Shown: positions 4,250 to 60,159 of the stretch, piece after piece
Numbering within the stretch: the stretch's first letter is position 1
Layout: each line of letters begins with the position of its first letter
Assembly: GCF_001078705.1 (NCBI RefSeq)
Contig: NZ_CDMW01000001.1
Coordinates: 1,729,541-1,793,540 of the forward strand
Direction: 5' to 3'
Length of the DNA stretch: 64,000 nucleotides
Origin: Streptococcus sanguinis
GTDB lineage: Bacteria; Bacillota; Bacilli; Lactobacillales; Streptococcaceae
Notes under the pieces: model-generated
What the model saw: only the letters and a program-made list of their open reading frames with translations
Told to the model about the DNA's origin: nothing
Databases searched by the model: none
Program-made: the position numbers and the translations under genes

Positions 4250-4269
4250 TTGTTACTCCTTTAGTTTGT

Positions 4270-5031
4270 TTATATCTCTTTGTCTATTATTTTCTGTTCT
4301 ATGAACCAATCCAACAAGGAAATTGTTTTATCTGTGTTTGCCCACCGATGATAAGAATCAAAGACCGCTTGCACACTGCCTAGATTTTCTACTAGCTTGT
4401 CAACTGTCAAAAAACTGCGCCAGTATTCGTAAAAAATACTAGCATAATTCCCTTGATAAGTTGAAGAGCCGAAATCATTCAATGAGTGCCAACCGTGCTT
4501 TTTCTGAAAGAGCTCAACAAGAGACTGATTACAGGCCTTTTCCGTTTGAAATCCCTCATCTGTAAAGAAATACTTGCGGCTAATATACTCAGCCATCCCT
4601 TCTTCAAACCAGATATAGGCACCGTATCCATCAAAATCATCTGAAAAATGCTCCGACCAATGAGCTAACTCATGGCCCACAATCTGCAAGAGAGAATTTT
4701 CAGACAAAGACTGATAGTGGTTTGCTATTGCTTGAGTTTGGTGAGAGGACTCGTAATTCTCTAACTGAAGGAGATACAAATCTTTCCAAATCGGCAACTC
4801 GGGAGTCATAACCATCCGCTTATCATTTGTATAAGCCGGCACAGGAATTTCACGAATGATCTGCGTAGCAGAATCAAAATCGGACCAAATGATGGCTTGC
4901 GGCAAGTCATAAACCGCAAACTCGTCTTTTAAAAAAGCCAGATAATCCTGCAACTTTGCGGCATTCTTTGCAACGAAATCTCGAAAAGCTACTAATTGAT
5001 TCTCATCTTTTACAAGATAAAGGTTCTCCAT
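4270..5031 (-). CDS. HExxH zincin-like protein of unknown function
   Basis: A 253-residue protein without a signal peptide or membrane span. HELAH at residues 120-124 followed by FEEGMAEY at 142-149 gives HExxH-x19-E with the Glu just before Gly, like the zinc site of gluzincin metallopeptidases. I infer a cytoplasmic zinc-dependent peptidase-like fold; activity and substrate are unknown. It is the first gene after the glycine T-box leader and stands directly upstream of glyQ, so it would be induced with glycyl-tRNA synthetase when tRNAGly is uncharged. That placement is the odd point. Could also be an inactive relative. Confidence 0.7.
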   Translation of the reverse strand: MENLYLVKDENQLVAFRDFVAKNAAKLQDYLAFLKDEFAVYDLPQAIIWSDFDSATQIIREIPVPAYTNDKRMVMTPELPIWKDLYLLQLENYESSHQTQAIANHYQSLSENSLLQIVGHELAHWSEHFSDDFDGYGAYIWFEEGMAEYISRKYFFTDEGFQTEKACNQSLVELFQKKHGWHSLNDFGSSTYQGNYASIFYEYWRSFLTVDKLVENLGSVQAVFDSYHRWANTDKTISLLDWFIEQKIIDKEI

Positions 5032-5064
5032 GAATCTCCTTTCTTTCGAACAATAGACTCAGTA

Positions 5065-5250
5065 CGCAAAAGAACCACATCCGACACTCCTAGGCTATTT
5101 ACCTAGGGGCGTCAAGACGCGGTTCCACCCTAATTTATTACTTCATTACTTTAAAAATGTTAACCGAAAGCGCCATCTGCACTGCTTCCCTATCCGGCTC
5201 ACACTATCCCGAACTCGCTAAAAAGTAGACAATGAGAATTCTTTCTAAAA
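5065..5250 (-). promoter_or_regulatory. T-box leader (tRNAGly-sensing) of the glyQS operon
   Basis: On the minus strand the leader carries the T-box core GGGTGGAACCGCG (5118-5130). That core can pair into a long terminator stem (about 5069-5124) with a CCTAGG-capped inner helix followed by TTCTTTT, so antiterminator and terminator are mutually exclusive. GGC within ATGGCGC near 5190 is a possible glycine specifier codon; the assignment to glycine rests mainly on glyQS downstream. Confidence 0.88.
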
Positions 5251-5253
5251 AAG

Positions 5254-5282
5254 ATTATAGCAGAAAATAGGACCAATGTAAA
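5254..5282 (-). promoter_or_regulatory. Promoter of the T-box/glyQS operon
   Basis: Minus strand TTTACA, 17-base spacer, TATAAT, just upstream of the T-box leader. This is a near-consensus vegetative promoter. Confidence 0.85.
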
Positions 5283-5291
5283 ATACTTATC

Positions 5292-5326
5292 GAAAAATCC
5301 CTCAAGTTTCAACTTAAGGGATTTTA
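5292..5326 (-). terminator. Terminator of the subtilisin-like protease gene
   Basis: AAAATCCCTTAAGTT pairs with AACTTGAGGGATTTT, followed by a T run on the minus strand. It lies about 20 bases after the protease stop codon and just upstream of the glyQS promoter. Confidence 0.85.
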
Positions 5327-5343
5327 ACTCACTTGAAAACCAA

Positions 5344-8300
5344 TTAGGCTTGTCTAGGTTTTTTCGGTCTTACGACTCTTGGCTTTCTGCCATCGAGTTT
5401 TCTTTTTGCCTCTCTGAGGTTGGTAATGGCTGCTTTGACATCTTCCTGGCTGGCACCTGGATCCGCCAAGACTGCCTTTGCCTCAGCATAGGCCTCTAGA
5501 TAAGCCGCCTTAACCGCGTCAGTCGCATAGATAAACTTATTGCTGATGGCTTGGTAATGCACCTCATCATCGACTATCTTCTTGAGATTGGTAAAGTTAG
5601 TCGCCTTGCCATCCAGCTTCTTCTCGGCTGTAGCTAGCTGAGCGATCGCTGTATCAATTTGCTCCTGTGTCACCTTGTCCTGCACCAAGAGCAGAGCCAC
5701 TGCTTGGAAGGCCTTGTCATAAGCGCGACGAGTTCTATCCTTAGCATTGGCATAAGCTCCTGTCTTAGTAGTAGCTGCATAAGCTTCCACAGCCGCCTTA
5801 ACTGCAGCGATATCAGAGTCCTTGCCGTCTAGATCAGCAGATGCTGTTTCAAGCTTACTTCTTACGGCATCAACTTGCGCTTGGGTCAGCTTGCTTGTCA
5901 AAGCGTCCTTGGCTGCCTGATATGCTTGGTCGAAGGCTGTGCGCTTCGCTGCAGAAGCATTGTAATACTGAGCAGTGCCGACCAGACTAGACTGCTGATT
6001 GACAGCTGCCAGCAAGCCTGACTTGACGATAACTCCCAGCTTCAGCAGGTTATTCTTACCTTCTTTGACCTCAACAGTCGGCTCAGTTTCCCAAAGCTCG
6101 TAGCCAGTCGGTAGGTTGACAAAGACAGAGTAGAATCCAGATGCTACAGATCTTCCGAAGGCATGCTTGCCAAACAGTTCTGCTGGAAGCGTATAAGCAT
6201 CGCCATTATTATTCTTGAGAACCACTTGGGTATTCTTCGGAACAGCTTGATCAAAGGCAACGCTGACCGGTGCAAAGACCAGCTTCTTAACTAGAAATTC
6301 AATCGTCTTAAAGCTATCTTGGGCTGTCAGCTCAAATTCCTGAGTCAGAGCGCTGTAGAAACGAAGCTCATCCTTATCATAAGTAAAGATCTCAGCTGTG
6401 TAGCGTCCAAACGGCAGAGCATTGATTTGCTTGCCTTTGTCCAGTTCGACATATTTGCCCTTGCTGTCCTTGATCCGATAGACAAAGGTCGAATGCACAT
6501 CTTGACGCGTATTGGCATCCACCAGAGCGACACGGATGCGCCCATCATTTTCAGCACTGACTAGCTCTGACAAAGCTATGGCATCACGGTTACCCGCATA
6601 GTCCTCTACCACATAGAAGATCTTAGACTTGTCCACTCCTTTTGGCAAGGTGTAGCTGCCATCCGCATTGGCTGAGATGTAAACCCGACGCTCGTAATCA
6701 CGCTCAATGCCAAAATCATCCACGGCCTTATAGGTCTCTTTCCCTTTTTCATCTGCCTGCAGATAGAAGACCTGTTCTCTCAAAATACCTCCGTTTCCAA
6801 CATCTTTTGGCTTGCGAGCTGTAAAGATTTCTGCGCCATCCTTGGTACTGATATAGCCTGAGCTAATCAAAGGCTTCTGGGTATCGATCTGCAGCTTAAA
6901 GGTAATCTGCTGCTCTTTAGCACCTGGTACATCTGGTGTATAGCGAACCACATAGGTATAGAGGCCATCTTCCAGCTTCTCACCCTTGCTATCACGACCA
7001 TCCCAGTATGTATCTTCTAGTAGGTAGGACTTAGGATTGTCTGACTGACCACTATAATAGTTCTTGCGGCCTTCTCTAATCGTGCTGCTCTGCCAGATTG
7101 GGAAGCGATAGTCCGTATCATCTGCCGTATAGACACTAGCTGTCAGATTATTGATATTGCGATAGAGAACTGTCCGATACTGGATGCTGTCCTGATTGCC
7201 ATCTCCATTAGGTGAGAAGGCCAGACGAATCTTGCCATCCGCTCCCAGCTGCAGCACATGCTTACCATCCGCATTTTCTGCAGTTCCCAGTACAATTGAG
7301 CTGCGAGCAGCTGTTCGACCGGTAGAGTAGAGTGTATCATTTGACTCTGTCACAAGGGAAGAGACATTGTTATCAGACAGGATACTCTTGTCCTCTGGCA
7401 CTGGGTAATAGAAGCCTGACTTGCCTTCTTGGACCAGATCATAGATTGGTTTTTCTACCGCTGGCAGATCTTGGAATTGCCCACGGAAGCCCATAAATGG
7501 CAGACTAACAACATCGCCGTCATCTGCTGGATCGACAAAGCGGACAAAGCCTTCTAAGAAATAGCCGTTCGGCATCTGCTTGATTAACTCTTCCGCAAAC
7601 TTAGCAGTATTTACCTTGACCGTCACTTTCTGGCTGCTGTGAGCCTTAACGGTGACTTCTGGCCAAACCGTTTCGGTTAGTTTGCGAGGTGTCAGGGTAA
7701 AGTAGCCATCCTTGACTCCGTCCGTATTGGTATTGACAATCATCTTCAAGGTCCGGTCCTTATCAGTAATATTATGAACCGTAACGTCAAAGGTGAAGCT
7801 ATCTTCTACATTGCCCAGAGAAACGCTAGGATATTGGTTATCTCCTGTCACATAGAGGCCGGTAGAAACAGCTGCTGCCGTATCTACGATACCAGCACCC
7901 TGCTGACGCGGAGAGGTGTAGACACCAGTTTCTTTGTTGACGTGCAGCTTAGCAGTTGACATGATGAGGGCTTTGACCAAATCGGCATTCTGGGCAGGTG
8001 TTAAGTCTGGATAATGCTGAAGGAGATATTCCTTGACCAGAGCTGCTACACCAGCTACATGAGGCGTAGCCATACTGGTTCCCTTCATAGAGCCATAGGT
8101 ATTGTCATTAAGCGAAGAGTAAATATCGCCACCTGGTGCTGTCACATCAGGCTTGAGCAAGCCATCTGTCGTAACGCCCCAACTAGAGAAGTCAGACAGA
8201 CTACCAGCTCCTGGATGCGGCCGATTGACCTTAAGACCATTAAAGACTACCTTGTAATTACCAGCTGCCAAAGCCTCTCCATATTCCTTACTAATAAAGG

Positions 8301-9864
8301 CTGACGGAACCTTTTTAGATTCACTGTCTAGGCTCATCGTTAGGTTAGCTCCGTCGACATTATTGTAGATCAGAGCACCAACAGCACCATGGCTAATGGC
8401 ATTTCTAACTTTTTCAGCAAAGGTAAAGGAACCACGCTGGATAAGAGCCAGCTTACCTGTCAGATCCTTACCAGCAAAGTCCTCTTCACGGCCAAGACCA
8501 ACATGAACATACTCATATTCCTTGCCCTTTTCAAAGGTTGCATTTGTCTCACCCATGGAGTAGCTGAAATGACCGTTCAAAAGCTTATCATTCTTTTCCA
8601 GACCACGCACTTCCATGACTTCCTCTGTCAGAACAGTATTATTGACAGAAGCGACTGAGATAGAGCTTTCTGCTGTTGAAGGACTGCCAACTAGACCATA
8701 GTCTGGATTTTCAACCAGCGGTTTAGAGTATTCACTTCCGAAGGTGTTGTCATTACCCGCAGCAATGATCACGCTCACCCCCTTGGCCCGAGCGCGCTCA
8801 ATAGCGGCCTGCAGACTAGGGCTGACATCAACCGTTGAACCTGTTGCTGAGCCCAGACTCATATTGATGGTATCAGCTCCCAAAGCCACCGCATCATCAA
8901 TGGCTTTGATATAGATAGCGTCGCTTGTTGTGCGTTGACGGTCTGAGAAGACCCGCATAAACATAACTTGTGCTTCTGGCGCAACACCATAGACATACTC
9001 ATCATTAGGAGCTTTCTTGTTGGGATTTCCCGCTGTAATCCCTGTTACGTGCATACCATGTGAGTAACTGTTCTTTTCCTTGATATTGTCATCACCGTCG
9101 ATATAGTTATAGGCATAGACAACCTTGCTGTTGTACCACTTCCCGTAGTCAATACCGGCCTTTTTCTTAGCCTCTTCAAGAGCTGCCTCTGTCTGATACT
9201 TAGCCTTTGACGGGTCAGAGATCTTCAGAACCTCATGATGGACATCCAGACCTGAGTCGATAATGGCTACCACACGGCCTTGACCTTTATAACCCTGTGA
9301 CCAGGTCTGAGGGACCTTGATAATCTCATTGGTACTGATGCTGCTTGGCTTAGCATCGCGAGAAGTTGGTGACTCTGCTACTGCATCAGGATTAGCAGCA
9401 GGCTTTTCTGAGTTTGCGGCTGTCGGAGACTCTACAGTCGAACTAGCTGGAGCTGTCGGCTTGGTCTCTGTGGCAGATGGCTGAGTTACCTTCTCAGCAC
9501 TTGAAGAAGCCTGTTCTGATGAAGAAGTCGCTCCTTTTTCTACAGGAGCTGCGGCTGCTTCCTTAGCCTCTGCCGTAGAAGGCTGGCTAGAATTCTCTGT
9601 ACTTGAAGTAGCCGATTCAGAAGAAGCTGGCGTTGCTTTCTCCACAGGTGCTTGAGTTGCCGGCTGACTCTCAGGTGTTGCTGCTTGAGAAGCAGACTCA
9701 GTCGCTGATACCACAGCAGCAGTCGTCTGAACTTGCCCTGATGAACTAGTGGTCGCCTGCTCATCTGCCTGAGCCTGTCCCGCACCAAAAACCAGAGCAG
9801 TTCCCAACAGAACAGAAGCCAAACCGAACTTGTATTTACGGAGTGAAAAACGTTGTCTTTGCAT
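5344..9864 (-). CDS. Secreted subtilisin-like cell-envelope protease (lactocepin/C5a-peptidase family)
   Basis: A 1506-residue S8 protease. It has a YSIRK-type signal peptide (FSLRKYKFGLAS, cleavage near residue 33) and a Ser/Ala/Thr/Pro-rich linker to about 175. The catalytic domain has Asp203 (IIDSGLD), His269 (HGMHVTG), oxyanion Asn371 (AAGNDN) and Ser597 (GTSMATPHVAG), with a PA domain inserted near 430-540. Fn3-like domains follow, then an FSPNGDG segment, Ig-like regions and about three FIVAR-type helical repeats (about 1290-1490). Family members degrade host or milk proteins at the cell surface. Oddly, there is no LPXTG motif or membrane anchor: it ends in a short basic tail (RPKKPRQA) before its own terminator. 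It is a single-gene unit. Confidence 0.92.
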   Translation of the reverse strand: MQRQRFSLRKYKFGLASVLLGTALVFGAGQAQADEQATTSSSGQVQTTAAVVSATESASQAATPESQPATQAPVEKATPASSESATSSTENSSQPSTAEAKEAAAAPVEKGATSSSEQASSSAEKVTQPSATETKPTAPASSTVESPTAANSEKPAANPDAVAESPTSRDAKPSSISTNEIIKVPQTWSQGYKGQGRVVAIIDSGLDVHHEVLKISDPSKAKYQTEAALEEAKKKAGIDYGKWYNSKVVYAYNYIDGDDNIKEKNSYSHGMHVTGITAGNPNKKAPNDEYVYGVAPEAQVMFMRVFSDRQRTTSDAIYIKAIDDAVALGADTINMSLGSATGSTVDVSPSLQAAIERARAKGVSVIIAAGNDNTFGSEYSKPLVENPDYGLVGSPSTAESSISVASVNNTVLTEEVMEVRGLEKNDKLLNGHFSYSMGETNATFEKGKEYEYVHVGLGREEDFAGKDLTGKLALIQRGSFTFAEKVRNAISHGAVGALIYNNVDGANLTMSLDSESKKVPSAFISKEYGEALAAGNYKVVFNGLKVNRPHPGAGSLSDFSSWGVTTDGLLKPDVTAPGGDIYSSLNDNTYGSMKGTSMATPHVAGVAALVKEYLLQHYPDLTPAQNADLVKALIMSTAKLHVNKETGVYTSPRQQGAGIVDTAAAVSTGLYVTGDNQYPSVSLGNVEDSFTFDVTVHNITDKDRTLKMIVNTNTDGVKDGYFTLTPRKLTETVWPEVTVKAHSSQKVTVKVNTAKFAEELIKQMPNGYFLEGFVRFVDPADDGDVVSLPFMGFRGQFQDLPAVEKPIYDLVQEGKSGFYYPVPEDKSILSDNNVSSLVTESNDTLYSTGRTAARSSIVLGTAENADGKHVLQLGADGKIRLAFSPNGDGNQDSIQYRTVLYRNINNLTASVYTADDTDYRFPIWQSSTIREGRKNYYSGQSDNPKSYLLEDTYWDGRDSKGEKLEDGLYTYVVRYTPDVPGAKEQQITFKLQIDTQKPLISSGYISTKDGAEIFTARKPKDVGNGGILREQVFYLQADEKGKETYKAVDDFGIERDYERRVYISANADGSYTLPKGVDKSKIFYVVEDYAGNRDAIALSELVSAENDGRIRVALVDANTRQDVHSTFVYRIKDSKGKYVELDKGKQINALPFGRYTAEIFTYDKDELRFYSALTQEFELTAQDSFKTIEFLVKKLVFAPVSVAFDQAVPKNTQVVLKNNNGDAYTLPAELFGKHAFGRSVASGFYSVFVNLPTGYELWETEPTVEVKEGKNNLLKLGVIVKSGLLAAVNQQSSLVGTAQYYNASAAKRTAFDQAYQAAKDALTSKLTQAQVDAVRSKLETASADLDGKDSDIAAVKAAVEAYAATTKTGAYANAKDRTRRAYDKAFQAVALLLVQDKVTQEQIDTAIAQLATAEKKLDGKATNFTNLKKIVDDEVHYQAISNKFIYATDAVKAAYLEAYAEAKAVLADPGASQEDVKAAITNLREAKRKLDGRKPRVVRPKKPRQA

Positions 9865-9894
9865 AGAAGTCTCCTTACTTTATTTATAAACCAT

Positions 9895-9900
9895 ATTATA
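9895..9900 (-). promoter_or_regulatory. Likely -10 element of the protease gene
   Basis: TATAAT on the minus strand about 30 bases before the protease ATG; the -35 match at 17 bases (TGAATT) is weak, so activator control is possible. The rest of 9901-10050 is AT-rich and contains GTTCT/AGAAC half-sites near 9965-9980, but I see no gene. Confidence 0.45.
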
Positions 9901-10052
9901 ATAAAAATTTTCTGACAATTCATACAATCCTAACAAATTTAACCAAAACGTAATAATGGCGAATGTTCTAGCCAAGAACAGCTATATAATAAAGTTTCAA
10001 GCATCTATTTGTTTGAAATACAGAACAAATACATCTTAAAATCCGGAAATAA

Positions 10053-10100
10053 GAAAAACCAATCAGAACAAGCGCAGAATACACCAGTTTGATTGGTTTG
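10053..10100 (-). terminator. Terminator of the methyltransferase/GHKL ATPase operon
   Basis: AACCAATCA pairs with TGATTGGTT around a loop of about 24 bases and is followed by a TTTTTC run on the minus strand, about 65 bases after the ATPase stop. Confidence 0.7.
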
Positions 10101-10162
10101 TGATAGGTTGTTTATTGGATATTATTTGTCAAATTAATTTTAACTTTAAAGCCTTGTAATTA

Positions 10163-12481
10163 TTATAAAGTTGTCAAATGCAATAATACAAGGAGTAATT
10201 GTATTTCTTGTGTTTTTGTTTTTACATCTTCTTTTGTAATTATTCTAGCTCCGTTATGTACAGATAAGTTTAAAAATGCAATAAAAGCATTTACTTCACT
10301 TTGAGACTGAATAGATTTATATATGCCTAATAGTATCTGCTTATCTTTATCATCAAGGCGTGAATTCTTGATTCTATCTTCTGCTATTGAAATCACTTTA
10401 TTATAGTTCTTTGATAAATCTGTTTTCTTTTCTTCTCCAATGTTATTTAATATATCATTAACTGTCAGTTCTATAAGAGTTCTATAAGAAATTACAGGAA
10501 TAATACTGTAATCAGTCTTAAATAACTCGTTAATTTCATTTATTAAAACTTTGATATCTGAAGAAAAATTTGGAGTTTCGGTGATTGGCAATCTAATCAA
10601 GGACTGTTTTAATTGTTCAGGTTTTATTTCGTACTCCTCAGACGATTTTATCCTAAAAGTAAAATCACTTTCATATTCTAGTTTAGTATCTTTATCCTTT
10701 ACACTTACAGTTATAGTTTGCTCTCCATTTCTACCAAACCTTATTTCTCCTTTTCTTCCATCATATCTGATTGTATGATTCCCATTTGTTGTTATATTCG
10801 GTTCTATTCTCTTCCATGGGATTCCTAAACTATTATATAAAGTAAAAATAGTTTCTAATTTGTAATCAACATCGCGTAATAAATCAATTTTGTGCACTTC
10901 TATTTTAGGCTGGACTGGCTTTTTCAAAATTATCTTTAGAGAAGTTATTGTAGTATTCGTCTCATTCTTAATCAGCCACTCCCCTTCCTGAAGTTTATTA
11001 AATCCATTAACTTTTTCTCCATTAAAGCTAATGTCTGTTGCAACTTGGATTAATTCATTTAAATTAGCAATCTTCTTATTTAGGTCATCTATATCAATCC
11101 ATGATTCAACTGTACCCAAATCTATTGTTTTTTTAGCCTTCGGAATAATGTCTAATAAAGTTTCCTCATCAAATAAAGTACATTTTAATTTGTTTCCTTG
11201 TTTTTTGAAAATTATAGAATCCTTTAATTTAAAATTTGGTTTAATATATTTTTTAAGATTGTCAGGACTAGAAGTTTCTTCTTCGGGTATCCTATTTTGA
11301 ATAAATGTTTTGGAAGAAAAATCTCTTAATTCATTTTTCAACGAAGCACCAATTCTCTGAATTTCTTCATTTAATTTTTCAATGAAATGAGCAATCTCAT
11401 CAGTTAACTCACTCTGAGAAAATTGAGTCCGATCAGAATTAAACTGTATTGATGAATCACTAGATTTAATCGAAATATAACCAATTAATTGCTTTAATAC
11501 TTCACTATATTTTTTAGTAGCCATTAATTCAGTATCAAACAACATATAGTTGTTAAATAAATTATTATTGATATAAATTAAAGGAGTTAAGTTATTATTA
11601 GTAGGATTATAGAATAAAGAGTTAATCTTACTTTTTCCTTTTGAAACGAGATAATAGGCAGCTAAATTAATATCAAGAGAATACCTATCTGAATTAAAAC
11701 TAAATTCTTCAGAAAAGATATCCTTACCATCTTTCCTAAAGACTAGATTTTGATCAGACGAAGAATAATTTATTTCAAATAACTGCTGAGGCTTATTTTG
11801 TGTCTGTAATTGAATTTCATAATCGGTTGAGTTAATCTCTCCATCTATATTAAGTTTTATAATAAAGTTCTTATCGGCAGAAATTTTTCCGTCAGATATT
11901 TTATCATCAATAAAAGAATTTAAAATTTTATTTCGATTAACTTCTTCACTAAGATACCTTTTTAAAGTATTGACATTATAATCATTGATTTCAATTTGGA
12001 TTAATGTACCTATAAAATCACCTGAACTTGAAAGAGTAACATCTAAACGCTTATCTGTTATATTATATTCAGTAACCAAAGAATCAAAATCTACAGTAAA
12101 CTCTGAGATCTGAGTATTTTGAGCTGTTTTCCAATATACTTTTTTCCCAAATCTAAAAACAGATAAAAATCCCAAACCTTTTGACCCCTGAGTTAAGCGT
12201 TTAGTGTCCTTATAAGAAATAATTTCTCCATAATGCTTATCACTACTTGATATGTGGAATAATTTTTTAATTCCCTCCGTATCCATACCAATTCCGTAGT
12301 CTCGAATTGTAAGTAGTCTAGATTCCGAATCCAATGTAATATCGACACTAGGAGAACAAGCATCGTACGCATTTTTTATTAACTCATTTAGAGCAATAAT
12401 ATTATTCGGAATTTTTTCTGATAATTCACTCAATATATTACCTGCTACAGTAATAGGTACTTGTTCAACTTTATTAGACAT
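10163..12481 (-). CDS. GHKL (Hsp90/MutL/MORC-type) ATPase of a methyltransferase-linked island
   Basis: A 772-residue protein with an N-terminal GHKL ATPase fold: N-box NELIKNAYDA (32-41), G1 DYGIGMD (61-67) and G2 with GSKGLGFLSVFRFG (99-112). A transducer-like region follows (about 220-390), then Ig-like beta-rich sequence (about 540-620) and a helical C-terminus (about 640-772) with RTLIEL and LSVHNG. I see no PD-(D/E)XK or HNH nuclease motif. GHKL/MORC ATPases linked to DNA methylases in restriction-modification contexts were described by Iyer, Abhiman and Aravind (2008). The ATG directly abuts the methyltransferase stop, so the pair is coupled. Sequence is much more AT-rich than neighbours, suggesting transfer. 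Anti-phage defence is an inference. Confidence 0.8.
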   Translation of the reverse strand: MSNKVEQVPITVAGNILSELSEKIPNNIIALNELIKNAYDACSPSVDITLDSESRLLTIRDYGIGMDTEGIKKLFHISSSDKHYGEIISYKDTKRLTQGSKGLGFLSVFRFGKKVYWKTAQNTQISEFTVDFDSLVTEYNITDKRLDVTLSSSGDFIGTLIQIEINDYNVNTLKRYLSEEVNRNKILNSFIDDKISDGKISADKNFIIKLNIDGEINSTDYEIQLQTQNKPQQLFEINYSSSDQNLVFRKDGKDIFSEEFSFNSDRYSLDINLAAYYLVSKGKSKINSLFYNPTNNNLTPLIYINNNLFNNYMLFDTELMATKKYSEVLKQLIGYISIKSSDSSIQFNSDRTQFSQSELTDEIAHFIEKLNEEIQRIGASLKNELRDFSSKTFIQNRIPEEETSSPDNLKKYIKPNFKLKDSIIFKKQGNKLKCTLFDEETLLDIIPKAKKTIDLGTVESWIDIDDLNKKIANLNELIQVATDISFNGEKVNGFNKLQEGEWLIKNETNTTITSLKIILKKPVQPKIEVHKIDLLRDVDYKLETIFTLYNSLGIPWKRIEPNITTNGNHTIRYDGRKGEIRFGRNGEQTITVSVKDKDTKLEYESDFTFRIKSSEEYEIKPEQLKQSLIRLPITETPNFSSDIKVLINEINELFKTDYSIIPVISYRTLIELTVNDILNNIGEEKKTDLSKNYNKVISIAEDRIKNSRLDDKDKQILLGIYKSIQSQSEVNAFIAFLNLSVHNGARIITKEDVKTKTQEIQLLLVLLHLTTL

Positions 12482-13750
12482 CTAAATCTCCTTTATTTTT
12501 CTTAATATCAAAACATATTCTTGATTCATTGATTCCACTGATTTATCTTTTACTTTAGAAACCCGTCTTGGCATTCTCTTTATAGGTATATTACGTGTAA
12601 TAGAAGCTTCCAACTCAAAACCAATATTTTCAAAAAATTCCTGCGTAATACTTGATAATGGCACTACTTTATTATCAACACGTCGATCACCTAAAGTTAA
12701 AACTATTCTCTTATCCTTTTTTAGAACACGTCCCATTTGCGTCATCACTTCCAAATAGTCTATTACAAAATTTTCCACTTTTTTTCGCTTATCTTGGGAT
12801 ATACTTTCAAGATACTCAGATAAATAGTGTGACTGATGCTTTTGTTTATTTCTTTTGCCAGATCCACCTAAACTATTTGAATCAATACTTGAATAATTAT
12901 CTATTAAATTTTCAGAAAAAACCTCCAAATCCTTCCTATCAATCCAATATATCGGTAACATAGAGTACTGTCCATATGTTACAGTAGTTGAATTATCTCC
13001 ATACGGAGGAGAAGTAACAATCAAATCCACTGAATTATTCTTCATTTCATATAAAATTTCTTCAGATTTTCCTATCTGTAAATTGATTTTTTTATTTCTA
13101 CTATAGTCAGGTAAATATTGAAAGTAAACATTAATACTTTTTAAAAAATCAATAATGATATGATTTTCCATCGCTTCAATAGAGCTTTGCTCTTTTATAT
13201 GCAATTTAAATGTCGAACTTCGTGTATTACTATACTTTTTTAAAATATTAATTAAACACACCCAATAATACTGTCTTACATATCTATACTTTTCTCTCTG
13301 GATAGCACAGCGAATTTTACTAAACGTCAATATGAAGTCTTGACGATACCATTTTTCTATATTATAAAAATAGTGTTTGTCAAAACCTGAATTGCTATTT
13401 TTTAAAAATTGTTCAATTTTTTTATTTGCCACATGGATATACTGTTTATTAACACCTTGTAACTTAACTTTTGTAATAAGATTAGCTAAAGGGTTAATAT
13501 CTATACCAATAGGAGATAGGTTGTTCTTTTCCCCCTCTACTAGTGTCGTTCCAGAGCCATGGAATGGATCAAGAATATTTGCAATGGACGAATCTTCACT
13601 TTTGATTAAATTGATCAATTCATATTGCATATCAGGTACCATTGTAGCTGGATACGCACTAATTTTATGAATACCTGAAGCAGTTACATTTTTAAAATCC
13701 CAATAATTAAGGCCTTTTTTTCTTATTCTATTTGCTAAACTTAAATTCAA
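12482..13750 (-). CDS. DNA methyltransferase (TSPPY type)
   Basis: A 422-residue SAM-dependent DNA methylase. A motif X-like segment (HKISAYPATMVPD, 28-40) precedes motif I DPFHGSGTT (61-69), then GIDINPLA (82-89) and motif IV TSPPYGDN (246-253). TSPPY fits N4-cytosine or N6-adenine amino methylation. Motif I comes before motif IV with about 180 residues between, so the target-recognition region probably lies there. The start is TTG with AGAGG about 8 bases upstream; no ATG occurs in frame until about codon 37. First gene of a two-gene AT-rich operon with a GHKL ATPase. No partner endonuclease gene is visible, so it may protect self DNA from an ATPase-based effector. Confidence 0.88.
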   Translation of the reverse strand: MNLSLANRIRKKGLNYWDFKNVTASGIHKISAYPATMVPDMQYELINLIKSEDSSIANILDPFHGSGTTLVEGEKNNLSPIGIDINPLANLITKVKLQGVNKQYIHVANKKIEQFLKNSNSGFDKHYFYNIEKWYRQDFILTFSKIRCAIQREKYRYVRQYYWVCLINILKKYSNTRSSTFKLHIKEQSSIEAMENHIIIDFLKSINVYFQYLPDYSRNKKINLQIGKSEEILYEMKNNSVDLIVTSPPYGDNSTTVTYGQYSMLPIYWIDRKDLEVFSENLIDNYSSIDSNSLGGSGKRNKQKHQSHYLSEYLESISQDKRKKVENFVIDYLEVMTQMGRVLKKDKRIVLTLGDRRVDNKVVPLSSITQEFFENIGFELEASITRNIPIKRMPRRVSKVKDKSVESMNQEYVLILRKIKEI

Positions 13751-13807
13751 AGTGCTACCTCTTTTATAAAAATGGTTATTATTAGATAAATGAAAATCTA
13801 TAGCTTA

Positions 13808-13816
13808 AGTATAACA
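13808..13816 (-). promoter_or_regulatory. Extended -10 promoter of the methyltransferase operon
   Basis: Minus strand TGT followed by TATACT, about 60 bases before the TTG start, with a poor -35. The remaining AT-rich gap to 14030 holds no convincing gene; a 14-codon reading frame at 13882-13926 is discussed among rejected items. Confidence 0.6.
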
Positions 13817-14030
13817 TAGATATCTTTACAGATAAAGAGATTAATAACAAGTTAACTGCAAAACGAAATAAAAATACAATATTAATTAGTCACTTCTTCG
13901 ATTTCCAATTCTTGGGTCTTCTTCATCTAACTCCCCTATCTTAGTGTTTCGTTGAATATTGGTCGTATTTTACACCTTTCATTATTGCACTGAAACATCT
14001 TCTTTTATAGTTTCTTCTGATGGTAGAGAT

Positions 14031-14060
14031 AAAAATTCCCAGTTCTTTTCAAACTGGGGA
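14031..14060 (-). terminator. Terminator of the GNAT/aldo-keto reductase operon
   Basis: CCCCAGTTT pairs with AACTGGG around a short loop, followed by AATTTTT on the minus strand, five bases after the GNAT stop. Confidence 0.85.
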
Positions 14061-14065
14061 TACTT

Positions 14066-14518
14066 TTATATTTTTAATTCATGCACTTCCTGCCAGCCGG
14101 CTGGTCCTAATATACGCTGGGGATGTTTGCTAAAGCCGGTCTCTCGGTAGAGATAGGAAGCGACTTGATTTCTCTCATTGACGCCTAGGATAATGCTTTT
14201 ATACATAGGCAAATGTTCTCTTATGAAATCAGGCAAGAGCTTCAGCGTCTGACTACCGTATCCTCGCATCTGAAAGTCTTCATCCGTTGAAAAGCTACGA
14301 AGGAGCAGGCTATCTGGCTGACCTCCATAAGTAAACTTCTTTTCTCCAGCATCCAAGATCAGAAAGGTTACGATTTGATCTTCTTCAAGACCCAAGATAG
14401 CATAGCGATTTTCTAAGTCAGCGACAGCCTGGCTCGGATGACTGGTAAATCTCAAGTCGGTTAAATGGTAAGACTGCAAGGCTTCTCTATCTGAACTTCG
14501 ATAGAATCGGATTTTCAT
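14066..14518 (-). CDS. GNAT family N-acetyltransferase
   Basis: A 150-residue protein with the GNAT layout: N-terminal MKIRFYRSSDREAL, central strand, and acetyl-CoA loop QMRGYGSQTLKLL (about residues 84-96, RGYG equivalent to the Q/RxxGxG/A motif), then a NERNQVASYLYRETGF C-terminal segment. It should transfer an acyl group from acyl-CoA to an unknown amine. The ATG abuts the aldo/keto reductase stop (TAGATG), so the pair is co-translated, but no shared pathway is evident. The conserved tail GWQEVHELKI is intact. Confidence 0.85.
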   Translation of the reverse strand: MKIRFYRSSDREALQSYHLTDLRFTSHPSQAVADLENRYAILGLEEDQIVTFLILDAGEKKFTYGGQPDSLLLRSFSTDEDFQMRGYGSQTLKLLPDFIREHLPMYKSIILGVNERNQVASYLYRETGFSKHPQRILGPAGWQEVHELKI

Positions 14519-15361
14519 CTAAAAATCCTTATTATCCGGATCTGGTGCCCCAGATTCAACTGATAAACTCTTCAGAAGTTCCATATCAGCAGCATCTAGC
14601 TCAATGCCAAAGCAGTCTAGATTGCTGGCAATTCGGCTCGGAGTGACCGACTTAGGCAGGGGCAGGAAACCTTCCTGCAAGCTCCAAGCTAAAGCGACTT
14701 GGGCAATGGTCTTGCCATACTTATCTGCCACAGCCTGCACGGCTGGATTTTGGAAGAGCTCACCTTGGCCAAATGGTCCCCAAGCTTCCAGTAAAATCTC
14801 ATGCTCACGGCAGAAGTTCACCGCCTCTGTCTGATAGACACCTGGAGCCAGGCGGATTTGATTGACAGCAGGAGTCATGCGAGCTGTCTCAAGCAAGGCT
14901 TCTAAGTGATGAGGCAGGAAATTACTGACGCCAATCGCTCGAATCTTGCCAAGATTATAGAGGTCTTCCATAGCCCGCCAGACTTCGGCATTGCGATTTT
15001 TCCAAGCATCATTTTCCCTCAGGGGTTTGGGATTAGGCCAGTGGATGAGGTAGAGATCCAGATAGTCCAGTCCCAACCGCTCCATTGAGGCAGCAAAGGC
15101 CTCTTGAGCCTCTTCATAAGTATGGTTGTCATTCCAAAGTTTGGTCGTGATGAAGAGCTCCTCCCGTGGAATGCCGCTGTCCTTTATTGCCCGTCCGACA
15201 CTCTCTTCGTTCTTATAGATGGCTGCCGTATCAATGTGCCGATAGCCTGCCTTGAGAGCGGCTAATGTTGCTTGATAGGCTTCTTCGCCATCCTGAGCTT
15301 TCCAAGTACCAAAGCCAAGCACCGGAATGCCTACACCATTGTTCAAAAGATATTCTTTCAT
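14519..15361 (-). CDS. Aldo/keto reductase
   Basis: A 280-residue NADPH-dependent oxidoreductase of the 2,5-diketogluconate/methylglyoxal reductase type. The catalytic tetrad is visible: Asp44, Tyr49, Lys74 and His107 (in HIDTAAIYKNE, TTKLW and LIHWPNP). LPKSVTPSRIASN near the C-terminus matches the cofactor 2'-phosphate binding loop. It reduces carbonyl compounds in the cytoplasm; the physiological substrate is unknown. It is the first gene of a two-gene unit with the GNAT gene. Promoter not clear. Confidence 0.93.
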   Translation of the reverse strand: MKEYLLNNGVGIPVLGFGTWKAQDGEEAYQATLAALKAGYRHIDTAAIYKNEESVGRAIKDSGIPREELFITTKLWNDNHTYEEAQEAFAASMERLGLDYLDLYLIHWPNPKPLRENDAWKNRNAEVWRAMEDLYNLGKIRAIGVSNFLPHHLEALLETARMTPAVNQIRLAPGVYQTEAVNFCREHEILLEAWGPFGQGELFQNPAVQAVADKYGKTIAQVALAWSLQEGFLPLPKSVTPSRIASNLDCFGIELDAADMELLKSLSVESGAPDPDNKDF

Positions 15362-15438
15362 CGCCCGCCTCCTTTACGAGTTCCATCCACTGCCTTATGC
15401 AAGGCAACCACTGTATTTACTAAGAAGAGCAGAGCTGC

Positions 15439-15633
15439 TCACTTCTTTTCTTTTTTCTTCATCATCGGCTTAGGTTTAAAGATATTTTCCTTGGTCGGCT
15501 CCATGCCTTTACTGAAAAAGCTATAGATAATGAAAGCTGCCCCTGCGACAAGGATTAAGATTCGTCCAAAGATCAGTCCCGCCAGCAGTAAAACAAGTCC
15601 CATTATCAAAAATTTCGCATCAATTCGTTTCAT
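15439..15633 (-). CDS. Small membrane protein, unknown function
   Basis: A 64-residue protein with two hydrophobic segments (about residues 7-23 and 25-41) and a lysine-rich, proline-containing tail (KPKPMMKKKEKK). AGGAG precedes the ATG and a good promoter lies immediately upstream, which supports a real gene. I do not recognise a family. It stands alone between the aldo/keto reductase and nagA. Confidence 0.65.
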   Translation of the reverse strand: MKRIDAKFLIMGLVLLLAGLIFGRILILVAGAAFIIYSFFSKGMEPTKENIFKPKPMMKKKEKK

Positions 15634-15661
15634 AGCCTACTCCTGTTTACATTATAGTCTC

Positions 15662-15690
15662 ATTATATCACGCCTAAGAAAGCAATTCAA
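15662..15690 (-). promoter_or_regulatory. Promoter of the small membrane protein gene
   Basis: TTGAAT, 17-base spacer, TATAAT on the minus strand, about 30 bases before the ATG. Confidence 0.8.
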
Positions 15691-15724
15691 ATCTAGGAGA
15701 AGGCTATCAAGTAGCTTGCCAATC

Positions 15725-15751
15725 AAAAAGAACAGGTTGCCCTGCTCTTTC
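15725..15751 (-). terminator. Terminator of nagA
   Basis: AAGAGCAGG pairs with CCTGTTCTT around GCAA, followed by a T run on the minus strand. Confidence 0.85.
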
Positions 15752-15790
15752 TGAAAAATATAAGGAGACTAATTTAAATACCTGCGGTTC

Positions 15791-16942
15791 TCATACATGG
15801 AAACGTTCTTGACCATCAAGATAAGTAGCTACTAGCTCTAAATCTTTATCTAAGACGATAAAGTCAGCATCGTAGCCTTCCTTGATCTGTCCGCAGACAT
15901 CATCAATATGGACTGATTTTGCTGGAATCAGGCTAGCCATCATAACCGCCTGATGAGGATTGGCAATACCCCATTTGACCACATTTTTCAATCCGTCCTT
16001 GAGTTTGAGGATAGAGCCAGCTAGATTGCCCGTCGACTTGAGCCGAGCGGTTCCTTCCGCCACAACCACTGGAAATTCTCCCAACATGTAGTCACCATCT
16101 TCAAGACCTCCAGCGGTCATACAGTCAGTAATGAGAGCAATATTTTCATGCCCCTTCTGCTTGAGTAAGATGTCACAGGCCTTAGGGTCCACATGATGGC
16201 CGTCACAAATCAGCTCCGCATAGGTGTGGGGCAACTCATACATGGCACCAACCATGCCCAGCTCCCGGTGGGTCAAGCCCCGCATACCGTTGTAAGCATG
16301 CACCCAGACACTGGCACCTGCTTCGACCGCAGTTTTGGCTTCATCATAGGTTGCGTTAGAATGCCCCAAAGCAACGGTCACACCTTCATCAGTCAGCGTA
16401 CGGACAAATTCCTCAACGCCATCACGTTCTGGCGCGAGAGCAATCTTATTGAGCAAGCCATTTGCGGCCTTCTGCCAAGCACGAAACTCATCCATGCTAG
16501 GATCTTTCATATAGGCAGGGTTTTGGGCGCCTTTATACTTCTCGGTGAAATAAGGTCCTTCAAAATAGAGACCGCGAATCTTGGCTCCGCTGGCTTCTTG
16601 ATAGCGAGCACCGATATTTTCAGTTACTGCTAAGAGCCGCTCATAGGATGAGGTCAGGGTTGTTGGTAAAAAGCTGGTCACACCGGTAGTCAAGAGACCC
16701 TCACTCATGGTATGAAGAGTTCCTTCGATGTTATTGTCCATGACATCAACACCGCCAAAGCCATGAATGTGCGTGTCCACCAGACCCGGCGCAATTGAGT
16801 AGCCGCTGTAGTCTATGACTTCCGCATCCTGCGGAACAGACTGCACCAGCTTGCCAAACTTGCCGTCAATCAGCTCTAAATAACCGCCCTGACGGATTCC
16901 CTGAGGATAGAAAAATTGATCTGCTTTAATATATGTAGGCAT
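15791..16942 (-). CDS. nagA: N-acetylglucosamine-6-phosphate deacetylase
   Basis: A 383-residue amidohydrolase that converts GlcNAc-6-phosphate to glucosamine-6-phosphate plus acetate, feeding amino sugars to glycolysis or wall synthesis. Metal-site signatures are present: DTHIHGFGG (His58/His60), YFEGPY, LGHSNATYDEA, VHAYNGMRG and the catalytic TDCMTAGG. The start is placed at 16942 because GGGAGG lies seven bases before that ATG and MPTYIKADQ is the usual N-terminus; an upstream in-frame ATG at 17014 lacks this. A NagR-like operator overlaps its promoter, implying induction by amino sugars. Confidence 0.96.
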   Translation of the reverse strand: MPTYIKADQFFYPQGIRQGGYLELIDGKFGKLVQSVPQDAEVIDYSGYSIAPGLVDTHIHGFGGVDVMDNNIEGTLHTMSEGLLTTGVTSFLPTTLTSSYERLLAVTENIGARYQEASGAKIRGLYFEGPYFTEKYKGAQNPAYMKDPSMDEFRAWQKAANGLLNKIALAPERDGVEEFVRTLTDEGVTVALGHSNATYDEAKTAVEAGASVWVHAYNGMRGLTHRELGMVGAMYELPHTYAELICDGHHVDPKACDILLKQKGHENIALITDCMTAGGLEDGDYMLGEFPVVVAEGTARLKSTGNLAGSILKLKDGLKNVVKWGIANPHQAVMMASLIPAKSVHIDDVCGQIKEGYDADFIVLDKDLELVATYLDGQERFHV

Positions 16943-17070
16943 AAGACTGCCTCCCTTGTCTTGACTTCTGTATTCTCTGCCATTCAAAGCGGAATTCTGT
17001 GATAGAGCTAGCATCTTTCTATAGCTGCTTTCTAACTCCCGCTTTTGAATCTCTGAGTTTTCTTGACTAT

Positions 17071-17099
17071 ATTATAACTCTTTCTTTTTTATTTGTAAA
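17071..17099 (-). promoter_or_regulatory. nagA promoter
   Basis: TTTACA, 17-base spacer, TATAAT on the minus strand, about 130 bases before the nagA ATG. Confidence 0.85.
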
Positions 17100-17114
17100 T
17101 GGTATATACCTATT
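17096..17114. promoter_or_regulatory. Candidate NagR (GntR-family) operator
   Basis: AAATGGTATATACCTATT contains a perfect GGTATATACC palindrome and resembles the NagR/YvoA operator (TTGGTATAGAC type). It touches the -35 element of nagA, so a bound repressor would block RNA polymerase. Confidence 0.65.
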
Positions 17115-17140
17115 TTTGCGAAAAATTGTTATATTAAATT

Positions 17141-17175
17141 AAAAAACAGAAAACCCAGCCATGATAGCTGAGTTT
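17141..17175 (-). terminator. Terminator of the rimP-rbfA operon
   Basis: AAACTCAGC pairs with GCTGGGTTT around TATCATG, followed by TCTGTTTTTT on the minus strand, a few bases after the rbfA stop. Confidence 0.88.
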
Positions 17176-17180
17176 CTACT

Positions 17181-17531
17181 TTATTTTTTATCTAAATCGC
17201 GCAGCATCTGGTCGATTTTATTGCCATACTCGATGGATTCGTCCTTGACAAAGGTCAAATCTGGAATCTTGTACATCTTCAGATTGTGACCCAGCTCTCG
17301 TTTGATGGTACCGGTCGCTTTTTCCAGACCGGTTTGAGCTTTTTGATTATCAGAGGCCAGATTGCTCATAATCGTGTAGTAGACCTTGGCCATGGATAGG
17401 TCGCCCAGCATTTGGACATCGGTAATGGTCACACCTTGAACACGCGGGTCACGAACTTTCTTCTGCAAGATTTCATTGACTTCGCGCTTGATTTCCATGC
17501 CTACACGGTCTGTACGAAAATTATTTGCCAT
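17181..17531 (-). CDS. rbfA: 30S ribosome-binding factor A
   Basis: A 116-residue KH-fold protein that assists late 30S subunit maturation and 16S 5'-end processing. The N-terminus ([27 protein letters not shown]) and the [21 protein letters not shown] stretch are typical. It is the last gene of the rimP-nusA-ylxR-ylxQ-infB-rbfA operon, separated from infB by 175 bases that include a strong palindrome, and followed by a terminator. GGAAATTTC lies upstream of the ATG. Confidence 0.97.
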
Positions 17532-17561
17532 GAAATTTCCTTTCTAATTTTTCTTTTCTGC

Positions 17562-17592
17562 AATATAAGCTAGGCTAGGCCTAGCTTATATT
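17562..17592. repeat. 14-bp perfect inverted repeat between infB and rbfA
   Basis: AATATAAGCTAGGC (17562-17575) and its exact complement (17579-17592) are separated by three bases. In the minus-strand transcript this forms a very stable hairpin; it is not followed by a clean T run in that direction, so it may be a processing or stability element rather than a terminator. Confidence 0.8.
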
Positions 17593-17706
17593 TTAGTTTT
17601 AATGAATGAAATTCGATCTAAACTCTTTGTGAAAAAGATGCGAGACTAAAAATATAGACTTTCACCAAAAATGATTTCACTACGAGTTTTTAACGGACTT
17701 CTTATC

Positions 17707-20502
17707 TTATTTCTTAATTTCTTCCATGATGTAGGCTTCAATCGTGTCATCTACTTGGATGTCATTGTAGCCATCAATCATGAGTCCGCCTTCGCGGCCG
17801 TTAGTAACTTCCTTAACATCATCCTTGAAGTGCTTGAGGCTAGCAAGCTCACCATCGTAAATCACGACGCCGTCACGGATAACACGAACCTTGGAATCAC
17901 GGGTCACTTTACCATTGATAACCATAAATCCACCGATAGTACCAACCTTGGAAACCTTGAAGGTCTCGCGGATAAGAGCTTCCCCGATGATTTTTTCTTC
18001 GTATTCTGGATCCAGCATTCCCTTCATGGCATCTTCCATTTCCTCAATAACCTTGTAGATAATGCTGTGGAGACGGATTTCGACATCATCAGCTTCTGCC
18101 TGTTGGCGAGCTTGAGATGTAGGACGAACGTTAAATCCGATGATGAAGGCATTTGAGGCTTCTGCCAGTGTCACGTCAGATTCATTGATAGCACCAACCG
18201 CTGAGTGAACAATGGTAATCTTAACGCCTTCAACTTCAATCTTCTGTAGGGAAGCAGACAGAGCTTCTACTGAACCTTGTACATCAGCCTTGATGATAAC
18301 ATTGACAGACTTAACTTCACCAGCTTTGAGGGTATCAAAGAGATTTTCCAGACTGACGCGGTGAGTAGCTTGACGCTGCTTAAGAAGGGCACGTTTGGCA
18401 CGTTCTTCACCGGCTGCACGTGCAGCTTTTTCATCTTCATAAACCGCAAAGTGGTCACCAGCCATCGGAGTTTCATTGAGACCAGTGATAGAAACCGGTG
18501 TAGATGGTCCCGCCACCTTCACGCGACGGCCCAGGTCATTGGTCATAGCCCGAACCCGACCGAAGGTATTACCAACAACGATTGGATCCTGCACATTCAG
18601 AGTTCCCTGCTGAACAAGCAAGGTTGCAACCGCACCTTTTCCTTTATCCAAACGGGCTTCGATAACTGTACCAATCGCTCGAACAGTCGGATCTGCCTTG
18701 AGTTCTTGGATTTCTGCCACCAAGAGGACTGTTTCCAACAAGCTGTCAATATTTTGATTGAATTTCGCTGAGATTTCTACAAATTCAGAATCTCCGCCCC
18801 AAGCTGTTGACATGACACCATGCTCAGCCAATTCACCGATCACGCGCTCAGGATTCGCTCCTGGCTTATCAATCTTGTTGATAGCTACGATGATTGGGAC
18901 ATCAGCGGCTTTGGAATGGTTGATAGCTTCGATCGTTTGCGGCATAACACCGTCATCAGCTGCAACGACCAGGATAGTGATATCCGTAACAGAGGCACCG
19001 CGGGCCCGCATAGAAGTAAAGGCCGCGTGTCCAGGCGTATCCAAGAAAGTAATCTTCTTGCCGCTTTCCTCGATCTGGTAAGCACCGATGTGCTGAGTGA
19101 TACCACCTGCTTCACCTGTTGCTACGCGAGAGTTACGCAGGGTATCCAAGAGGGTTGTTTTACCATGGTCAACGTGTCCCATGATGGTGACAACTGGCGG
19201 ACGCTCTACCAAGGCATCTTGGTTGATATAACCTTCTTCTACGAAGAAGCGCTCAATGTCAGCTGTGTCAACTTCCACCTTCTTCTTAGCCTCGATACCG
19301 TAGTCCACCATGAGGAGCTCAATAGTATCGCCGTCAAGAGATTGGTTTTGCGTTGCCATCACGCCCATCATAAAGAGCTTCTTAACAATTTCAGCTGGCT
19401 CGCGCTTGATCCGTTTTGCAATTTCTGCAACGGTCATTCCGTCTGTATATTCAAATTCAGTTGGCAACTCATGGAACTTACGTTCTGTAACAGGTTTTGG
19501 CGCCTGATTGTGGTTGCCCTTTCCTTTTTTATTTTTCTTGTTTTTATTCCAATTACTATTTCTTTGATTTCTCACTTGATTTTGACTGCTTCGATTCTTT
19601 TGTTGTTTTCTTGGACCTTCTTCTTCGCGATCAAAATCATCGCGCTTCTTATCTGGTCGAGCTTGCTTCTTACGACGCGTATCCACAGCGGCTGGCGCTG
19701 GGCTTGGATTCGCTGCTGGAGCAGATGGAGCTGGTGCAGGCTGAACTGGTGCACTTGCTTCTGCCTTAGGCTGCTCCTTGCGGCGGTTTTGCCGTTCCAT
19801 AACTTCTTTTGCCTCCTGAGCTTGCTTAAAGCGTTCCTCGCTGGAGCGAGCGTATTCAGCATTCTGCTCTGCTTTCAAAGCTGCTGCCCGAGCCTTAAAG
19901 TCAATCTTCGGTCCTTGAGGCTGTTGACGGTTTTGACCGTTAAATCCTTGCTGATTCTGACCATTGCGGCGGCCATCTTGACCACGATTATCGCGACGGT
20001 CATTTGGACGATTGCCCCTATCTCGGTCGTTGCGGTTTCCGCGATTCTTATTTCGATTATCGCGATCCTCACGCTTGCCTTGCTCTTTGTTTTGTGGTTT
20101 GCGGTTGCCTTGCTGCTTCCGACGTTCTGCCTCTTCTTTGGCTCTCGCTTCACGCTCTGCCTTAAAGTTCCGGCTTTGCGGGCGCTTGACAGGCGCTACC
20201 ATTTCTGCTTTCGCTTCTGGCTTAGCAGCTGCTTTTGCTTCTGTCTGTTCTGCCTTGACTGGTGCCGCCTCTTTGGCAGGAGTTTTTTGCGGTGATGGCT
20301 GAGCTGCTGCAGGCTTTTCTGCAGTAGCTTGAGGTGCGGCTGCTTTTTTCGTAAAGCTGGACTTGATTCGCTCACTAGCGTCAGCTTCTACACTGGATGA
20401 ATGACTTTTGACATCGAATCCCAGCTCCTTAGCACGAGCCACTACCTCCTTGCTTTCTTTTCCCAGTTCTTTGGCGATTTCATACAATCTTACTTTAGAC
20501 AA
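17707..20502 (-). CDS. infB: Translation initiation factor IF-2
   Basis: A 931-residue GTPase that brings fMet-tRNA to the 30S subunit and promotes subunit joining. It has an IF2_N helical start ([20 protein letters not shown]), a long low-complexity Ala/Pro/Lys/Gln/Arg/Asn-rich region (about 50-330), a second IF2_N, then the G domain ([23 protein letters not shown]) and domains II-IV. The start codon is TTG with GAGGAGG seven bases upstream. Long N-terminal linker length varies between streptococci. Encoded between ylxQ and rbfA in the nusA operon. Confidence 0.98.
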
Positions 20503-56707: not shown

Positions 56708-56781
56708 CTCCGCCAGTAGGACTCGAACCTACGACATCATGATTAACAGTCATGCGCTACTACCAACTGAGCTATGGCGGA
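56708..56781 (-). tRNA. tRNA-Asn (GTT)
   Basis: A 74-base cloverleaf on the minus strand: acceptor TCCGCCA/TGGCGGA, anticodon loop CTGTTAA (GTT), T loop GGTTCGAGTCC. It is the last gene of the rRNA operon, just after 5S. Confidence 0.95.
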
Positions 56782-56903: not shown

Positions 56904-57018
56904 TATTGAATTAACTACTTTACCTCTCAGGCAAGCCTTGTCAACTCAAAATTGAATACAATATCAAATCTCACAATCTCTAAACCATTCGCTGCACTCT
57001 GATGAAGCTCTTATTCTA

Positions 57019-59917
<2,899 letters not shown>

Positions 59918-60159
59918 TATTTTTGACCTTTCAGTCTTAAACTCATTAATATTCACAGCGTTTTCGGTTTATTTTCTTGTTACTATTTGATATTAGTATT
60001 CAATTTTCAATGGACAAGTAGGATAGCTATCAACCAAAGTTGAATCCCAGACTAACTTCTTAGGAAAAAAGACTAACTTCCTTGTGTTCATCGAACACAA
60101 TGTCAGTTCTCTATTTTTCTACAGAAGTTCCCGCAAGCGGAACGTCTTCCATATCCTAA

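Follow-up and report, generated by a model that had tools for sequence, protein, structure and literature searches.

A Methyltransferase and MORC-Type ATPase Island in Streptococcus sanguinis: A Candidate Modification-Licensed Immune System

Organization and Insertion of the Island

A 64,000 bp stretch of the Streptococcus sanguinis chromosome (assembly GCF_001078705.1, contig NZ_CDMW01000001.1, positions 1,729,541–1,793,540), hereafter called the window, carries an AT-rich island with two minus-strand genes, a DNA methyltransferase (methylase) followed by a GHKL ATPase whose C-terminal domain is probably an effector. The methylase gene (12482–13750) encodes 422 amino acids (aa) from a TTG start preceded by a good ribosome-binding site (aaaagaggtag), and was recognized by the Pfam N6_N4_Mtase and PADLOC MTase_II models. 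The ATG of the ATPase-effector gene (10163–12481, 772 aa, Pfam HATPase_c_3) directly abuts the methylase stop codon TAG, with the sequence AAAGGAG just before it. A strong stem followed by a T tract (10045–10110, minus strand; −18.7 kcal/mol, z −4.84) forms a terminator 3′ of the ATPase gene, and the terminator scan placed a terminator-like hairpin on both strands at 14035–14061, between a GNAT gene and the island. Four terminator-like sites were observed in the scanned stretch, two of them at 14035–14061, compared with 1.2 expected in shuffled sequences. Among the open reading frames (ORFs) of at least 80 aa listed for the window, no other in the island was recognized as an endonuclease candidate. 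The original prediction, made from the DNA letters alone, had described an AT-rich block between terminators holding a TSPPY methylase with a TTG start and an abutting 772-residue ATPase; the ORFs, the GC content and the hairpins bear this description out, and the upper limit of 13816 given there takes in 66 bases of leader.

The extent of the island, 10136–13900, was defined by comparison with a related genome, G009. The flanks of G009 aligned to the window with 95.1% identity over 4227–10135 and 93.9% over 13901–18000, and 2.6 kb of other DNA was present there in place of the island. The GC content was 0.279 inside the island versus 0.455 and 0.446 in the flanks. Judged by this alignment, the methylase-ATPase block is an inserted unit. 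The same chromosomal spot in G009 (L166, 6015–6614) holds an ORF of 199 aa with a match to the PADLOC model PDC-S71 (8e-33). The match covers only positions 6–205 of this 589-position candidate-defence model, and the ORF is probably a remnant. Its presence suggests that this spot acquires defence genes.

The Methylase Family and Its Partners

In the methylase, motif I (DPFHGSG) precedes motif IV (TSPPYGD). The Pfam match had a value of 4.3e-14, and the MTase_II match (4.3e-67) covered residues 15–419, which classifies the protein as a Type II methyltransferase. The DP, G-x-G and SPPYGD residues were invariant in an alignment of 11 relatives. By these sequence features, the protein is a member of the MvaI/BcnI-like amino-methyltransferase family. 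Three relatives with 26–30% identity (L086, L089 and L090) lie beside MvaI/BcnI endonucleases, and the window locus differs from these restriction-modification systems in having a GHKL protein in place of the endonuclease. MvaI/BcnI enzymes recognize CCWGG/CCSGG and M.MvaI makes N4-methylcytosine; at just 26–30% identity, the relatives linked to such enzymes do not reveal which site or base the window methylase modifies.

The neighbourhood of the methylase was surveyed in 51 family loci, a partner being a gene within 600 bp and GHKL genes being counted on the same strand. A GHKL gene was found beside the methylase in 21 loci (17 downstream, 4 upstream) and an MvaI/BcnI enzyme in 11. A second methylase was the only partner in five, in two cases with a downstream gene matching PADLOC REase_II, and 14 loci, four of them at contig ends, showed none of the partners sought. 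In the window, no MvaI/BcnI endonuclease was present within 600 bp, and the GHKL gene was the sole neighbour of the sought classes. These loci are not independent (L109, L110, L112 and L113 are alike, L115 and L117 have the same layout, and L116 and L118 belong to one genome), and the ATPase was, or may have been, the route to L042, the window locus and the three other loci of the genus (L062, L077 and L105). The survey of homologous neighbourhoods that had been proposed as a check of the original prediction gave a divided answer, with a frequent GHKL partner on one side and the MvaI/BcnI and partnerless loci on the other. A collection of viral contigs contained relatives of the methylase at 31 loci, and 14 plasmid records, nine of which were examined, had such relatives too.

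Eight of the GHKL partners form a longer class of 822–842 aa, and the three that were scanned with Pfam (L062, L084 and L085) carry a second, kinase-like HATPase domain. In seven loci (L062, L085, L114, L115, L117, L120 and L121) a gene of 822–841 aa is followed by a gene of 505–646 aa; this arrangement was noted at 8073–12464 in L062 and at 6248–10484 in L085. The protein encoded after the dual-HATPase gene in L062 and L085 appeared receiver-like by eye, and no Pfam receiver match was obtained in the four scanned. The GHKL partner gene of L119 was cut off. In L147 (5167–9666) and L148 (5327–9712), two tandem methylases of the family precede a 592-aa protein matching PADLOC REase_II (9.3e-175 and 7.4e-151, respectively), a further class of restriction partner.

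The N-Terminal Module and Middle Region of the ATPase

The Pfam HATPase_c_3 match had a value of 2.3e-14. All nine residues of the N-box, G1 and G2 motifs are present (E33, N37, D61-x-G63-x-G65 and G99-x-K101-G102-x-G104), in agreement with the intact motifs originally noticed. They were conserved across the 12 or 13 alignment rows available per position with three exceptions: L108 and L042 have N and Y at D61 and G63, and L146 has A at G104. In the module that spans residues ~11–390 (11312–12451, minus strand), the GHKL domain precedes a domain of S5 fold in which a basic residue is conserved, an arrangement that characterizes MORC and paraMORC ATPases. The AF2 model of the whole protein had a mean pLDDT of 78.8, and its nearest folds in the VIA structure search were MORC3, SMCHD1 and MORC2, a search that was uninformative on the middle and C-terminal parts. 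According to the model, the N-terminal module is of the MORC type (paraMORC-like). The S5 domain of MORC proper is marked by the motif GhXhhpXXRhl (Iyer 2008); in a check by eye only, residue 342, eight past the conserved G334, was D and not R.

Matches to two housekeeping proteins were rejected, as that of MutL (0.022) was confined to the GHKL part and that of HtpG (3.5e-6, profile positions 45–143) likewise covered this part only. No housekeeping family matched beyond the GHKL part; a match to such a family had been named as grounds against the original prediction.

The middle region (residues ~392–613; 10643–11308, minus strand) is rich in strands according to the secondary structure of the model, and gave a weak Pfam MBG match (E 0.19). 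No nuclease domain was recognized in the ATPase by the domain and defence profile scans.

A Probable HEPN-Like Domain at the C-Terminus

The last part of the ATPase, residues 630–772 (10166–10594, minus strand), forms a helical domain that the original account of the protein had missed. A separate model of this domain had a pLDDT of 80.5, and its 14 best-ranked VIA matches were HEPN-superfamily proteins, by title or by our own recognition. The structure prediction and fold search proposed with the original prediction, which were run on the ATPase, have in this way given a MORC-type fold at one end and a HEPN-like ranking at the other. R667 and H742 were the sole invariant residues of the domain, present in 14 of 14 rows, some of which are only 15% identical to the window protein. 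Such invariance across divergent rows points to an active site.

The canonical HEPN motif R-x4-6-H is missing; the family has instead [N/H]-x3-H, with the invariant R 75 residues upstream. No formal Pfam HEPN family was listed for the domain and 13 relatives, and a DUF5677 match (9.1e-5) was seen in one member only. When solved structures were searched by sequence with the C-terminal profile, the best E was 0.081. The PADLOC model PD-Lambda-5_A matched residues 600–765 through its positions 331–490 of 502 (7e-5). The labels given to C-termini in the methylase survey are partly circular, as the 13 training sequences of the model include those scored, and independent support for them came from a leave-one-out run and from PADLOC. 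Taken from the model, the domain probably has a HEPN-like fold, and it is the probable effector.

Co-Occurrence and Distribution

Of 197 sampled genomes of the genus, four (G000, G064, G126 and G194) carried the methylase (cut-off E ≤ 1e-20) and three (G000, G126 and G194) the full-length ATPase, each time directly 3′ of the methylase and at three different sites. The probability that three of three ATPases fall by chance within those four genomes is 3e-6 (hypergeometric, uncorrected for shared descent). The related pair is located between purH and purD in G126 and behind valS in G194, the gene names being our reading of the sequence. In G126 the ATPase is fragmented, and the methylase ORF of 426 aa is intact; the one internal stop counted in its match is the natural stop of the ORF, the match running one codon further. 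The methylase and the ATPase behave as one mobile unit.

Sixteen further genomes of the genus matched the ATPase only in its GHKL or GHKL-S5 part. In 10 of these 16 cases (L060–L063, L066–L069, L072 and L073) the next upstream ORF on the same strand had DNA-methylase motifs, which indicates that GHKL genes commonly come after a methylase gene in this genus. Outside the genus, the full architecture was found in G653 (L145). Among 398 sampled genomes of the phylum there was no further full-length ATPase, and 20 other genomes matched the N-terminal part only. Phage records gave neither an ATPase relative at 1e-5 nor a methylase relative at 1e-15, and a scan of genome contigs with the single ATPase sequence returned one distant GHKL match only. 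PD-Lambda-5_A was detected in 2 of 101 genomes, one being that of the window, and in 4 of 199 with another model.

A relative found in viral contigs with the ATPase alignment (L106) showed no adjacent methylase in its stretch, the contig ending 646 bases upstream. Together with the other partners that accompany the methylase family in many loci, it argues against a fixed pair. The idea of a complete modification-dependent pair consequently stands in part: the ATPases of the genus belong to a mobile unit linked to the methylase (three of three), and the pairing is not exclusive. Homologues scattered without each other had been named as grounds for abandoning that idea; the three full-length ATPases in the sampled genomes of the genus adjoin a methylase, and the methylase family has other partners.

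Other GHKL proteins were observed beside methylases. Those of L044 (3800–5833) and L045 (587–2521) adjoin C5 methylases and have C-terminal PADLOC matches to the TIR protein spbK (2.9e-34 and 1.4e-18); they would represent another output domain on the GHKL chassis. In L092 (Neisseria gonorrhoeae NZ_CP119142.1), a GHKL ORF of 297 aa closely follows a short ORF that has the motif of a C5 methylase, in a stretch lacking annotation; the two look like the decayed remains of such a pair.

Exchange of the Partner behind valS

The loci L062 (G064) and L077 (G194) occupy the same place, behind valS. The methylase genes of the two genomes were 94.8% identical in DNA, compared with 84.2% for the valS block and 80.1% for the following C5-methylase block. 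Identity broke off where the methylase gene ends and resumed approximately 10 bases before the C5 methylase. Between these breakpoints, G194 has a GHKL gene with a HEPN-like C-terminus and G064 a dual-HATPase gene and a gene for 639 aa. The two GHKL proteins could be aligned over ~130 N-terminal residues only, with 37% identity. Near-identical methylases with different partners imply that a single methylase serves, or served until recently, alongside two outputs that differ greatly. The alignment suggests that the methylase carries recognition or licensing, or that each output has evolved towards the same site.

This exchange is a natural experiment, with nearly the same methylase at the same site and a different effector. 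It could show which of the two proteins, methylase or ATPase, reads the DNA site, and if a MORC-type clamp turns unmethylated DNA into an abortive RNase response.

Proposed Mechanism and Alternative Readings

We propose, with slightly better than even confidence, that the island encodes a two-gene, modification-licensed immune system in which the ATPase takes the slot of the restriction enzyme, probably acting by HEPN-type abortive infection. As its family suggests, the methylase would mark a short site in the host DNA. The MORC-type GHKL-S5 ATPase, with the fold of the predicted model, would dimerize and clamp DNA on ATP binding, a behaviour transposed from MORC, MutL and gyrase. On unmethylated target DNA, an ATP-driven closing or remodelling may release the C-terminal HEPN-like domain, which would most likely cleave RNA and so stop the infected cell. 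With these steps, the system would operate as restriction-modification does, with abortive infection coupled to it. The ATPase would replace the restriction enzyme of the sister loci, its output probably being RNA cleavage and not the cutting of target DNA. Marking of self, sensing of unmethylated DNA and a HEPN-like RNase make up the reading that uses all the parts. The locus would then be a minimal case, in which two genes encode a single methylase and a single ATPase-effector.

A wider reading, which we put forward tentatively and judge less probable than the proposed two-gene system, makes the methylase the shared recognition or licensing part of a modular immune platform. The MORC-type GHKL proteins would be interchangeable outputs reading methylation through or with it: the HEPN-type RNase, the histidine-kinase-like protein with its following gene, and perhaps TIR or a DNA nuclease. 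If so, the exchange behind valS would be a direct trace of such modularity.

The main rival, which we consider rather unlikely, is plain restriction-modification: the GHKL protein would be a DNA-cutting, Type II-like restriction enzyme comparable to BbrUII/HgiDII, and its middle or C-terminal part would hide a cryptic nuclease. A GHKL protein adjoining a C5 methylase (L043) is indeed a full member of the BbrUII/HgiDII family NF050001 (759.7 bits, cut-off 550), PADLOC REase_II matched the N-terminus of the window ATPase (4.4e-6), and MvaI/BcnI enzymes accompany the same methylase family in sister loci. However, the window ATPase gave no NF050001 match up to E 10, the REase_II match spans only GHKL residues 26–132, and the protein combines the lack of a detected nuclease domain with a C-terminus that looks HEPN-like.

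It is more doubtful that MORC-like clamping silences or compacts unmethylated foreign DNA with no nuclease output, the C-terminal helical domain serving merely for dimerization or regulation. The closest folds, MORC3, SMCHD1 and MORC2, and the missing canonical HEPN motif are in line with this explanation, but the restriction of invariance to R667 and H742 over 14 rows points to an active site, and in PD-Lambda-5_A a related domain follows another N-terminus (ParB-like in our reading). Least probable in our view is a non-immune epigenetic or addiction element, self-maintaining with the methylase as antidote or regulating genes without action on phages, as the broken ATPase beside an intact methylase in G126, which an addiction pair predicts, and the 14 of 51 methylase loci lacking any sought partner are set against the defence-candidate fragment at the same locus in G009, the 31 viral-contig loci and 14 plasmid records with methylase relatives, and partner classes that are restriction or defence families.

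Relation to Known Systems

Prokaryotic MORC-like ATPases have been tied to restriction-modification by gene neighbourhood since 2008, and the original prediction of an undescribed kind of system was not supported. The BbrUII/HgiDII family is named, paraMORC-HEPN proteins were predicted in 2013, and PD-lambda-5 has been described as a compacted "RM+Abi" system, with two components including a predicted methyltransferase (Vassallo et al. 2022, PMC9519451). The end of PD-lambda-5 protein A matches the C-terminus of the window ATPase, which also has an adjacent methylase gene. The differences lie in the N-terminus, ParB-like by our reading in the gene A relatives L097 and L098 and GHKL in the window, and in motif IV of the neighbouring methylase, DPPYY in G377 versus TSPPY. 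The window ATPase matched the PADLOC gene A model through residues 600–765 only and not over most of its length, in a comparison made through PADLOC models and relatives. This related C-terminal domain ties the phage-protective PD-lambda-5 to MORC-type systems.

In the HEPN survey of Anantharaman et al. 2013 (PMC3710099), paraMORC ATPases with a C-terminal Ymh HEPN domain in restriction-modification neighbourhoods were predicted as analogous to PrrC/RloC, a logic close to the mechanism put forward here. The window protein is likewise a GHKL ATPase with a probable HEPN-type C-terminus beside a methylase. It differs in having no Pfam Ymh match, an unusual [N/H]-x3-H and a strand-rich middle region, and the only visible partner is an MvaI/BcnI-type methylase. 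With BbrUII/HgiDII it shares the N-terminal GHKL module and, as in L043, an adjoining DNA methylase; it has another C-terminus, and the methylase is of the TSPPY type and not C5. M.HgiDII recognizes GTCGAC, as stated in PMC5867850.

VcSduA, a Shedu protein with an N-terminal GHKL domain, also fuses a GHKL ATPase to an effector, predicted in the window protein, and phage protection was shown for it (PMC12137116). Its effector is a PD-(D/E)xK DUF4263 nuclease, encoded by a single gene for which that text describes no methylase. The HEF_HK/Response_reg_2 paraMORC-like two-component elements are described by Bellieny-Rabelo et al. 2021 (PMC8011034) as GHKL proteins in restriction-modification neighbourhoods with upstream methylases. 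In L062, L084 and L085, dual-HATPase proteins of a similar kind accompany the methylase family of the window; the HEF_HK elements have a second kinase-like HATPase and a receiver-type gene, whereas the window protein has a probable HEPN-like domain.

In open-licence literature, mostly at abstract level and hence a weak indication of absence, the two-gene combination, the C-terminal link to PD-Lambda-5_A and the partner exchange were not described. The kind of system, a GHKL ATPase with a methylase or a paraMORC-HEPN protein, was already known or predicted, and the exact combination and the exchange are apparently new.

Other Features of the Window

Next to the island, at 5344–9864, an ORF of 1506 aa encodes a subtilase with a YSIRK signal and PA, Fn3-like and FIVAR domains. 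It ends in a tail rich in K, R and P, in which an LPxTG sorting motif was not seen. Further away, the GC content rises to 0.48–0.52 at ~57000–62000, around a tRNA-Ala gene (60159–60233) and near a tRNA-Asn gene (56708–56781), and this segment looks like a ribosomal RNA operon.

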